64,000 nt of DNA from Levilactobacillus tongjiangensis. Lineage in GTDB: Bacteria; Bacillota; Bacilli; Lactobacillales; Lactobacillaceae. Positions 34,458 to 54,704 of this stretch are shown piece after piece; the stretch's first letter is position 1, and every line of letters starts with the position of its first letter. The position numbers and the translations under genes are program-made. The notes below the pieces were generated by a model, which ran no database searches, was not told where the DNA came from, and saw only the letters and a program-made list of their open reading frames with translations. Location: the NCBI RefSeq assembly GCF_003946345.1, contig NZ_RHNY01000002.1, positions 1-64,000 of the forward strand, given 5' to 3'.

Positions 34458-35327
34458 TTGACGGCCCTAGTTACTTCCACTGCCACCTCTTCTAAGTGGC
34501 TTCAAAACTACGTCAATTCGTTTGACTGGGAAAAATTCTTGCACCTGATCACGAGTCGTTTTCTCTCGCTACTCTTTCTGACCCTGCTATTCCTAGTGAT
34601 CAACATCGTGGGAAAATGGATCTTGAACCGCAGCTTTAAGCGTTACCTGGTTCCAAAATCTGGCCCCAGCAATCGCCTACAAACCATCAGCATGCTCTCG
34701 ATGAACATCTTTCACTATACAGTTCTGTTCTTTTGGATTTACGCACTCCTTTCCACTTTAGGCGTACCCGTGGGAACGTTAATTGCTGGTGCTGGGATTT
34801 TCAGTTTAGCTTTAGGTCTCGGAGCTCAAGGCTTTGTAAGCGACTTGGTCACTGGAATCTCTATTCTGTTCGAACAACAGCTCGACGTTGGTGACACTGT
34901 TCAGATTGGCACGATTGAAGGAACCGTCACTGCAATGGGATTGCGGACCACCCAGGTTACCAGCGCTGACGGTACCGTGAACTTCATCCCCAATCGCAAC
35001 ATTACCATCATCTCTAACCGCTCCCGTAATGACATGCGGGCGACCGTTAATATTCCCATTGCATCTACCACTCCGGTTGAACAATTACCTAGCATCATCC
35101 GCGACGTGAATGATCATCTCAAGCCCGACCACCCCAACATCATCGGCGATCCAGCCCTGATTGGCGTCGTCACCCTCCCTACTGGAGAACTGGTATACCA
35201 GGTGATTGTCGTCGCTAAGAGTGGCAGCCAATACGCCCTACAAGCGACCTTCCTGACCGCATACCTAAAAGCGATTCGGACGGCTGGCATTCAACTGCCG
35301 ACGCATACCACGACACCTAGCAAGTAA
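34458..35327 (+). CDS. Mechanosensitive ion channel, MscS family
   Basis: This 289-residue MscS-type channel opens on membrane tension and protects against hypo-osmotic shock. Three hydrophobic segments lie near 27-53, 72-98 and 103-135; the pore helix is Gly/Ala-rich (LIAGAGIFSLALGLGAQGFV). The beta domain follows: DIVGDTVQIG-type QQLDVGDTVQIGTIEGTV and NFIPNRNITIISNRSR. The start is a TTG at 34458, eight bases after AAAGGAGG. It is monocistronic. The size is close to E. coli MscS. Confidence 0.92.
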   Translation: MTALVTSTATSSKWLQNYVNSFDWEKFLHLITSRFLSLLFLTLLFLVINIVGKWILNRSFKRYLVPKSGPSNRLQTISMLSMNIFHYTVLFFWIYALLSTLGVPVGTLIAGAGIFSLALGLGAQGFVSDLVTGISILFEQQLDVGDTVQIGTIEGTVTAMGLRTTQVTSADGTVNFIPNRNITIISNRSRNDMRATVNIPIASTTPVEQLPSIIRDVNDHLKPDHPNIIGDPALIGVVTLPTGELVYQVIVVAKSGSQYALQATFLTAYLKAIRTAGIQLPTHTTTPSK

Positions 35328-35329
35328 CC

Positions 35330-35354
35330 CTTTCAATCATAAATACCAATTAAA
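35330..35354. repeat. Short direct repeat, left copy
   Basis: The 25-bp stretch CTTTCAATC-ATAA-ATACCAA-TTAAA recurs imperfectly at 35748-35773. The two copies enclose a segment of about 395 bp that contains structured repeat A. Confidence 0.4.
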
Positions 35355-35410
35355 GGTTGAAAGTACAGAAGCCGTTAATAATAAGGCATTTTAGACTTAA
35401 AATTAGTCCC

Positions 35411-35595
35411 ACCCAGCCACCTGCGGCTGTCAGAGATTCCGCCTGCTGTGGGGAACGCCTCCGGCCTGAAAAGCGGTCCTTCGGCTCGGTTTGAAGCCTG
35501 GAAAAAACCACCAGTCTCCAAACACGTCCCACGCTGTAAGCCGAAAATCGGCTAACACCGTCGACACAGCTGGCTCCATCTCTGACCACCTCCGG
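35411..35595 (+). repeat. Structured intergenic repeat, copy A
   Basis: Together with 54331-54510 this forms a two-member family. On the plus strand it can fold as a closing stem (GTCAGAGAT at 35429 with ATCTCTGAC at 35578, continued by GCC/GGC), an arm GTTTG/CAAAC topped by CTGG-loop-CCAG, and a hairpin AGCCG/CGGCT. Shared primary sequence includes GCCTGCTGTGGGGA and TGACCACCTCCG. The arms differ from copy B while pairing is kept. It lies in the 497-bp gap between mscS and the YczE gene. A 79-codon frame across it on the minus strand is not credible as a gene. Confidence 0.7.
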
Positions 35596-35747
35596 TTAAA
35601 CGGGTTCTTGGAAACTAAGTTAGCTTAAATGCCTGGCTGACAGCACTTGCTCAATATTATTGGCAAACAGGCAGGCATTAATTTCCTACCAATGACTACC
35701 CCCATACCCAATTCCTGTTGTATCAGGCATAATTGGTGTTTCAGTAC

Positions 35748-35773
35748 TTTCAATCTTTAGATACCAAATAAAA
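35748..35773. repeat. Short direct repeat, right copy
   Basis: CTTTCAATC-TTTAG-ATACCAA-ATAAA matches the copy at 35330-35354 with a one-base gap and a few changes. It abuts the terminator at 35771. Confidence 0.4.
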
Positions 35774-35818
35774 CACCTGAGACACTGGTCGGAAACGACC
35801 AGTGTCTCAGGTGTTTTT
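35771..35818. terminator. Strong bidirectional terminator
   Basis: AAACACCTGAGACACTGGTC and GACCAGTGTCTCAGGTGTTT form a perfect stem of about 20 bp with a four- to six-base loop, flanked by A-rich and T-rich tails. It ends the leftward adh-cyclase-YczE transcript and could stop rightward transcripts through repeat A. Confidence 0.88.
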
Positions 35819-35824
35819 TGGGTG

Positions 35825-36496
35825 TTAATTGTTCACCATTTCAGAATTTAACTTACTCACTTTGCCTTCAGCCACCCATTTAGAAAATGGTGTCAGAACT
35901 TTCATCAGTTGGTCAACGATTGGCCCATAACCAAAGATAGCTACTAATGTCCCAATCCCCCAGGCTCCGCCAAGTAACCAAGCGGCGCTGAACAGGATTG
36001 CATAAACAATTGTCAACGAGATGCCATAGCCCTTATGAATAATTTCCCCCAGTGATAGGGTCAAAATATCTGAAGTCTGGTAACCAAAATCCATCGGAAT
36101 ATAGTACGCCAAGGCCAGACAAACTAAGGCTGTTCCAATAATAATACAAAGAATCTTGACCGCAACCGAGGGACTGCCCGGAATCACAGCATTAACCACC
36201 GGTGACATCAGATCTAGACAAGGACCAATCCCAAAACAATATGCAAACGATCCAAAATTAACCAATTTGCGATTCAAGAAGAAAAATAAGACGAAGATAC
36301 CACCTTCAAAAGTTAGTGACGCCATTCCTAACGAGATATTAAACGTTGAGGATAAAGCTAACTCCCACATGGTCAGGGGATCTGTCCCCCATCCTGCCTT
36401 AACGAAGAAATCCACACCCAAAGCACAAACCGGAACAGAAGGAACAACGGCTAAACATTTTCGCAAGTAGTATCCAATCTTATTTTTAGTCATCAT
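35825..36496 (-). CDS. YczE/YyaS/YitT family membrane protein
   Basis: This 223-residue integral membrane protein has about six hydrophobic segments. Conserved family parts are LGVDFFVKAGWGTDPLTMWE near residues 22-41 and FGYQTSDILTLSLGEIIHKG near 131-150. YczE-type proteins are uncharacterised; a transport or sensing role is often guessed. Its ATG overlaps the end of the cyclase gene, so the two are translationally coupled. It is the last gene of an operon with the dehydrogenase and cyclase, and may export or import their substrate (inference). Confidence 0.8.
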   Translation of the reverse strand: MMTKNKIGYYLRKCLAVVPSVPVCALGVDFFVKAGWGTDPLTMWELALSSTFNISLGMASLTFEGGIFVLFFFLNRKLVNFGSFAYCFGIGPCLDLMSPVVNAVIPGSPSVAVKILCIIIGTALVCLALAYYIPMDFGYQTSDILTLSLGEIIHKGYGISLTIVYAILFSAAWLLGGAWGIGTLVAIFGYGPIVDQLMKVLTPFSKWVAEGKVSKLNSEMVNN

Positions 36497-54225: not shown

Positions 54226-54330
54226 CGCGGTCACCTCCCAGCTTAGCAAATTTCTAATCCTATTGTACCCAAACATCCGTTTGCCTTCAACGGTTTTGAT
54301 TGAATAGTCAATAGGTGTTGCTAATAACAT

Positions 54331-54510
54331 CCGCTCCGGTGGTCAGGGCGGGCGCCTGCTGTGGGGACGCTTCAGCCCAAGGGCGGGCTTCTCGCTCGAT
54401 TTAAAGCCACGAAAAACCCGTGTCTTTAAATGCGCCCATGGCCTAAGCTAACCAAAACCGTTAGCTAACGCCATTTTCACCGCTGGCGCCCGTCCTGACC
54501 ACCTCCGCTT
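54331..54510 (+). repeat. Structured intergenic repeat, copy B
   Basis: This is the second member of the family seen at 35411-35595. The closing stem is GGTGGTCAGG then CGGGCGCC (54338-54356), pairing with GGCGCCCG then CCTGACCACC (54485-54503). Inside are ATTTAAAG/CTTTAAAT topped by CACG-loop-CGTG, and GCTAAC/GTTAGC. Shared blocks with copy A are GCCTGCTGTGGGGA and CTGACCACCTCCGC. The arms differ from copy A yet still pair. It fills much of the 480-bp gap between dinB and yajC. Confidence 0.72.
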
Positions 54511-54518
54511 ACATTGTT

Positions 54519-54560
54519 GACAATGATGATACTGTCTCACAACTTGTCATCATCCTTTTT
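54519..54560 (+). terminator. Possible rightward terminator after repeat B
   Basis: ATGATGA and TCATCAT pair across a 17-base loop and are followed by CCTTTTTTT on the plus strand. It would fit a plus-strand transcript of repeat B, but the stem is short and AT-rich. Confidence 0.4.
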
Positions 54561-54664
54561 TTCAGTCACCAATTTTCCCTGCTACCCATAGTGGCTTATT
54601 CTATTAACGATTCACTTGTTTAAGCCCAACCAATAACATCACCGGTTGTTTATCTTTAAAATTC

Positions 54665-54695
54665 AGCAAAAAAAAACGGCCTCCGAGAGACCGAA
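54665..54695 (-). terminator. Intrinsic terminator of yajC
   Basis: On the minus strand CGGTCTC, a three-base loop and GAGGCCG (one G-T pair) are followed by nine T residues. Confidence 0.82.
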
Positions 54696-54704
54696 CTTTT
54701 GACA

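Follow-up and report, generated by a model that had tools for sequence, protein, structure and literature searches.

A covarying hairpin-armed repeat of Lactobacillaceae and the case for a mobile DNA element

The first 64,000 nt of contig NZ_RHNY01000002.1 of Levilactobacillus tongjiangensis (assembly GCF_003946345.1), here called the window, carry two diverged copies, A and B, of a structured sequence whose stems differ in compensating ways. Covarying conserved structure is a known criterion of structured RNA families, and it is displayed by this sequence, for which a preliminary description suggested the plus strand as the RNA. Is the folded molecule RNA or DNA, and what keeps its arms paired?

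Architecture, abundance and covariation of the module

Each copy is a module of about 180 nt (Table 1) that, on the plus strand, consists of a long stem (P1), helix P1b, a junction with P2 and P3 closed by a GGG/CCC helix, and hairpin P4. All the arms described earlier for copy A were located at their coordinates, as were their copy B counterparts; that inventory of four helices holds, to which P1b, the GGG/CCC helix and the hairpin around 35456-35486, overlooked at the time, have to be added. Two helices are weak, helix 5 (65.0% of cells paired) and helix 11 (60.6%), and P3 is missing from some second modules (L150, by eye). A minus-strand ORF of 79 aa (35350-35589) spans the copy A hairpin.

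Table 1. Features of the copy A unit, and copy B, in the window
Feature	Position	Strand	Details
Left target-site duplication ATACCAA	35343..35349	.	same as 35761-35767; single at the orthologous L. yonginensis site (L069)
Left TIR TTAAAGGTTGAAAG	35350..35363	+	TIR pattern search of own genome
Copy A, module M1, branched hairpin	35418..35595	+	reference orientation (minus folds better); covariance model R1, 165.6 bits, full length
P1 left arm GTCAGAGAT	35429..35437	+	partner ATCTCTGAC, 35578-35586; covarying helix 2, 86.6% of cells paired
P1b left arm GCTGTG	35445..35450	+	partner CACAGC, 35565-35570; helix 3, 95.1% of cells paired
Junction-closing helix, arm GGG	35451..35453		partner CCC, 35528-35530
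P2 hairpin, variable stem, extent approximate	35456..35486	+	helices 5 and 6, 65.0% and 97.5% of cells paired
P3 hairpin, A-rich loop, C × T mismatch	35489..35523	+	stem GTTTG 35489-35493 / CAAAC 35519-35523; tip CTGG 35498-35501 / CCAG 35511-35514; helix 8, 96.9% of cells paired
P4 hairpin, A × A mismatch	35531..35561	+	stem AGCCG 35539-35543 / CGGCT 35549-35553; helices 9 and 10, 91.0% and 93.7% of cells paired
Inner part of unit, opposite module M2 missing	35597..35746	.	by-eye comparison with full ~595-bp units; unit lengths
Right TIR CTTTCAATCTTTAG	35747..35760	-	sequence and TIR pattern search
Right target-site duplication ATACCAA	35761..35767	.	matches 35343-35349
Copy B, second-type module	54331..54508	+	covariance model R1, 179.4 bits

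The two copies first described are real, but their number was far too low. With copy A as the query, the L. tongjiangensis genome yielded 158 first-look candidates and at least 40 matches, the other 39 being 92-98% identical over the aligned part, and copy B also gave at least 40, more diverse (other 39 at 73-92%). This genome contains 87 instances of the 12-base word CTGCTGTGGGGA and one of the reversed control. Covariance model R1, built from 44 copies (alignment A1), returned at least 150 matches from 1135 first-look candidates, all with E values of 1.5e-21 or better and 149 of them full length, indicating that this genome contains at least 150 modules.

Within the genus, blastn with copy A found matches in 25 of 35 Levilactobacillus genomes, its own included. 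The covariance-model scan that had been suggested for Lactobacillaceae matched 76 of 301 genomes, in 10 of 40 genera (E ≤ 0.001), and a scan of 395 genomes of the order matched 20 (E ≤ 1e-4), all 20 of them Lactobacillaceae; carriers beyond Levilactobacillus include Companilactobacillus hulinensis, C. tucceti and C. mishanensis. Distant blastn gave no match in plasmid records for copy A, the pair at L159 (g38), one g20 module or one g4 module, nor in phage records for copy B or L159. One exact match to a module-like pattern lies in a 4936-bp IMG/VR viral contig (L299:247-289), which may be host DNA.

In RNA folding, copy A was more stable than all of 200 shuffles on both strands (z = -5.3 minus, -4.0 plus), and copy B likewise beat its shuffles on the minus strand (z = -7.1); the partial piece 35411-35542 folded no better than shuffles (z = -0.3). 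We examined covariation in alignment A3, the 150 best of 165 model matches (149 distinct rows, six rows being opposite-strand readings or overlaps of copies already present). Both sides had changed in 59 of the 62 pairs. Doubly changed cells numbered 1830, compared with 468 (sd 20) in shuffles, a control that ignores relatedness among rows, and with 233-323 in slid controls, over which the structure has an advantage because rows of the tested alignment had served to derive it. Likewise, 90.1% of cells were paired (68.9% in shuffles), and the covariation score was 0.508, against 0.148 in shuffles and 0.056-0.089 for slides of 1-3 columns. The covariation proposed from two copies is thus borne out, and the evidence for it is overwhelming.

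Pairing is interrupted at specific positions. Mismatch counts, like the wobble and strand-fold counts below, used 119 rows of less than 85% identity, taken from the 144 left once six overlapping rows had been dropped. The C × T mismatch of P3 is kept in 112 of these 119 modules and the A × A of P4 in 96. A T × T beside P1b, apparently conserved in copies A and B, was rejected as a conserved feature because TT occurs in only 44 of the 119, although the position is usually mismatched in some way.

Mobility and genomic setting

The 411-bp unit at 35350-35760, of which copy A forms an arm, is MITE-like: it has inverted ends and is flanked by a 7-bp target duplication (Table 1), and the corresponding site in L. 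yonginensis lacks the element. Full A-type units of about 595 bp consist of a TIR, also written CTAAAGGTTGAAA, an inward-facing module, a spacer, a second, opposed module and the other TIR. We regard it as near certain that copy A belongs, as an arm, to a MITE-like insertion. The preliminary description had named a match to a known transposon-derived repeat as evidence against its reading; in kind, this is what copy A proved to be (TIRs, duplication, empty site), and no named element was found. Of the features that define MITEs, TIRs are present for the copy A type only, the target-site duplication with its empty site is found for the copy A unit, and the units are short and without a transposase gene. 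No TIR was seen adjoining copy B. Directly behind the right target duplication lies a terminator-like hairpin (35772-35815, 20 counted pairs, both strands).

The TIR pattern CTAAAGGTTGAAAG (at most two mismatches) occurred at 116 places in the L. tongjiangensis genome and at 40 for the reversed control. Among the loci examined, 31 TIR-bounded stretches measured 200-720 bp; when duplications of 7-9 bp were sought, with one mismatch allowed at 8 bp or more, they surrounded 17 of the 31, including 12 of the 22 with the module core motif, and the remaining 14 had none under this rule. Besides Levilactobacillus, a single genome (G320, of genus g38) showed two-sided TIRs; they are the same TIRs, with duplications of 7, 8 and 9 bp at L159, L161 and L160, respectively. 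Among 40 pairs without A-type units, four had the TIR motif on both sides, all in G320, and it was absent at two g38 pairs of other genomes.

No autonomous relative with the same TIRs appeared among 100 listed of the 116 TIR places or in 14 other genomes, nor by TIR spacing in 14 fetched regions (ORFs examined in L245), and no transposase ORF was found by eye in 10 regions, three of which were L. tongjiangensis pairs whose modules lie 1.7-1.9 kb apart. A long candidate at L245 was rejected as an autonomous element, being two A-type repeats around a 98-aa ORF (L245:1933-2229), presumably a RelB-type antitoxin.

Gene context was assessed for 70 modules of the L. tongjiangensis genome with a crude purpose-written gene caller, which left seven modules lacking a called neighbour on one side. 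None of the 70 lay inside a called gene; 20 were between convergent genes, 6 between divergent genes, and 19 and 18 in tandem arrangements, with and against transcription, respectively, so that their orientation to tandem genes is even. Several modules start 8-35 bp after a stop codon, and pairs in opposite orientation are frequent in Levilactobacillus and other genera. A terminator-like hairpin separates the members of 7 of 31 such pairs, compared with 0.3 in shuffles; a rule that pairs flank a host terminator was dropped, given that terminators lay in 7 of 31 gaps, upstream of 3 and downstream of 9. Complementarity extends into the flanks, with a mean of 7.02 against 6.07 (sd 1.37) for swapped flanks, and 26 of 118 modules, all drawn from the 119 rows used for the mismatch counts, fall in the top 5%, where about 6 are expected.

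The spacer between two genes that we take to be dinB and yajC is a recurrent landing spot in the genus (window 54230-54700; L182, L184, L187, L195 and L197; by eye), and several species have the repeat between a promoter-like sequence of dinB and the ribosome-binding site of that gene (by eye). Downstream of a presumed mscS, a terminator-like stretch with TGTGACTTCGGTCATGG recurs inverted beyond the element pair in L085 and L086 (L085 by eye). Also downstream of mscS, the whole module is gone in L080 (compare L078 and L079) between the near-direct repeats CCTGCGGCT and CCTACGGCT (by eye), as in a deletion between direct repeats.

Comparison of sister species revealed both insertion and change in place. 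Seven sites of L. tongjiangensis contig C12 were compared with L. yonginensis (G031), whose sites are empty where the former has its units at 35350, 106671 and 144168. Copy B is common to both genomes at the same site, no counterpart exists for a weak match near 159.4 kb, and two sites are occupied by another type: at 84.6 kb a B-type module in L. tongjiangensis corresponds to an A-type in L. yonginensis, and at 153 kb the reverse holds. These two switches suggest that recombination among dispersed copies replaced one type with the other, which is likelier than independent insertion at one site. A further comparison covered five loci with both flanks in additional stretches, of which L001 is the copy A unit again, no element is present at L004, the flanks of L008 lie about 95 bases apart, and L009 (copy B) and L034 are shared. 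A single compensated pair distinguishes the L034 module from the corresponding one of L. yonginensis (by eye), and the copy B site of G032 carries an internal deletion (L181, by eye); counterparts were decayed or deleted at L080, L181 and L192 (by eye), and one locus has mosaic cores and stems in three sister species (by eye).

Across 19 of 20 sister-species comparisons at corresponding places, some of which share a sequence and several of which clearly involve replaced rather than orthologous modules, 114 pairs had changed on both sides from one Watson-Crick pair to another. Steps between Watson-Crick and non-Watson-Crick states were single-sided in 86 cases (38 mismatch, 29 A.C, 19 G.T) and two-sided in 27 (18 mismatch, 7 A.C, 2 G.T).

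Strand and nature of the folded molecule

Over 62 pairs in 119 modules, the plus strand had 6318 Watson-Crick cells (1490 of them doubly changed), 116 G.T, 240 A.C and 434 other mismatches. As A.C on the plus strand is G.U on the minus strand, wobble favours the latter. The 40 cleanest pairs agreed (G.T 59, A.C 119, other 38), with an A.C excess in L. tongjiangensis (29 G.T, 55 A.C) as in other genomes (30 and 64), and the direction was unchanged in a single-mismatch tally of 124 modules (GT 71, AC 107). RNase P served as a wobble control, tRNAs being too few (2 in the loci). RNase P sequences taken from 30 of the 35 Levilactobacillus genomes and treated in the same way yielded G.T 62, A.C 3 and other 43, an imperfect comparison since RNase P is far more conserved than the module (91% mean identity against 55%). 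Next to this 62:3 ratio, the 2:1 of the module indicates a weak strand bias, which may carry mutation asymmetry between strands.

Folding also separated the strands. The RNA folding energy of copy A was -91.8 kcal/mol on the minus and -72.1 on the plus strand, and the means per nt were -0.528 and -0.478, respectively. The fraction of conserved pairs recovered was 0.829 on the minus and 0.806 on the plus strand with RNA parameters (60 vs 44 modules), and 0.86 and 0.795 with DNA parameters (81 vs 18 modules), such that DNA parameters on the minus strand gave the best recovery of the four settings (other three 0.795-0.829). The plus strand, which the preliminary description had preferred for its A-rich loops, is thus disfavoured by wobble and by fold recovery; its sole support is a promoter-like match upstream of copy A (35375-35403, plus; 1 found, 0.6 expected by shuffle). 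A simple scan of 35300-35850 found no promoter-like site on the minus strand.

The module had earlier been left without a named RNA class, in agreement with our comparison with Rfam, which gave no module match at the gathering threshold in the window and six loci; a tRNA-Sec hit was weak (E 8.4, below the cut-off). One locus of another genus contains a purine riboswitch (RF00167, L163:238-336, 69.1 bits). We rejected covariation alone as proof of RNA in view of the unit with TIRs and target duplication, the empty L. yonginensis site and a wobble bias far below that of RNase P, and an RNA reading of the module is not established. On balance, we infer from the weak strand bias, the even orientation and the DNA-parameter result that the fold acts as DNA.

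Origin of the repeat and its fold

We consider it rather probable, with due reserve, that copies A and B are members of a family of mobile DNA repeats with hairpin arms in Lactobacillaceae, whose fold works mainly as DNA and is kept by selection together with recombination and template switching; the family as a whole is likely mobile or selfish rather than kept by the host. TIR-bearing units would be moved by a transposase encoded elsewhere, and TIRs with a duplication of 7-9 bp suggest a cut-and-paste enzyme. Modules without TIRs would be remnants of older insertions, or may have spread via recombination between copies. The fold would act as a hairpin or cruciform, best on the strand running outward from each module; selection on the copies still able to move would maintain its pairing, with the conserved mismatches as putative recognition marks, and recombination among copies as well as template switching over the hairpin could repair it. 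PMC8794818 presents template switching as a source of compensatory change, and flank complementarity could fit copying across the hairpin base. Against a DNA repeat stand the lack of a transposase in a limited search (TIR places, regions and ORFs by eye), the narrow occurrence of two-sided TIRs, the 14 TIR-bounded stretches with no duplication, and the fit of the 2:1 wobble bias and the lower minus-strand RNA energy to an RNA. The mismatches conserved in P3 and P4 speak against template switching as the sole process. A broader proposal, which we put forward as doubtful, is a superfamily across Lactobacillaceae whose mobility or persistence needs the fold of about 180 nt in single-stranded DNA of the outward-running strand, its mismatches being recognised by a hitherto undescribed host or transposase protein and its pairing kept by template switching, gene conversion and selection.

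The main alternative, unlikely in our judgement but to be taken seriously, is a structured RNA read outward from the minus strand, a selfish or regulatory sRNA hitch-hiking on the mobile repeat and selected as RNA. It would account for the wobble excess, the minus-strand energies of copy A and of the modules on average, and the covariation, but its wobble bias is far under that of RNase P, the only promoter-like site by copy A lies on the plus strand, orientation to tandem genes is unbiased and Rfam has no match. Mutation by itself might produce most of the covariation if template switching perfects quasi-palindromes and gene conversion homogenises them, leaving a fold with little or no function. 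Few wobble cells next to many double changes, flank complementarity, the type switches in situ and the locus at which three sister species have mosaic copies are all consistent with this, and we nevertheless hold it improbable, as specific mismatches persist within helices and full-length covariance-model matches extend across 10 genera. That the host keeps the repeat as a beneficial 3'-UTR or intergenic element, an mRNA stabiliser or terminator-like insulator, seems highly improbable: the surplus of convergent over divergent sites, the modules close behind stop codons and the terminator-like hairpins within pairs point that way, but insertions are polymorphic among sister species, counterparts have decayed or been deleted, and there is no bias towards either orientation in tandem genes.

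Several classes of repeat resemble this family by description. ERIC and BOX elements, from other hosts, are palindromic, foldable, intergenic sequences of 100-200 bp in high copy, all properties of the module. REP/BIME sequences are intergenic hairpins in inverted pairs and high copy, defined by a short hairpin with a GTAG/CGTC tag and a RAYT gene encoding the transposase. Our repeat shares their inverted, intergenic, high-copy arrangement, but its module of about 180 nt bears three hairpins on a stem, and REPs measure 20-40 bp (PMC3733652). The unit is MITE-like in being short, intergenic and in high copy, with TIRs, a target duplication and no transposase gene seen inside, and differs in its two large, opposed branched-hairpin modules, in a fold conserved across genera and in having no parent transposase identified. 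The closest published analogues found are the bcr repeats of the Bacillus cereus group. According to PMC3446304 and PMC6542083, bcr1-bcr3 are MITE-like and bcr10 and bcr18 have conserved secondary structure; these repeats are likewise intergenic, with mobile features, and partly transcribed. Up to 130 copies of bcr1 per genome, and a link between bcr mobility and the motif TTTAT, are given in the latter source (PMC6542083), whereas TTTAT occurs in just 1 of 17 target duplications here and the host family differs. We recognised no published description of the hairpin-armed repeat among the papers listed by searches of the openly licensed literature; in a survey of 40 genomes for stem-loop repeats, the Lactobacillus named in a table is L. 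johnsonii (PMC2267715).

With many natural copies of one large fold per genome, empty sites and switches in place, this repeat offers a test bed for compensatory change, in which its origins in selection, gene conversion and template switching can be addressed. It also carries a warning, as covariation of the strength usually accepted to prove a functional RNA can be borne by a mobile repeat with weak strand bias.
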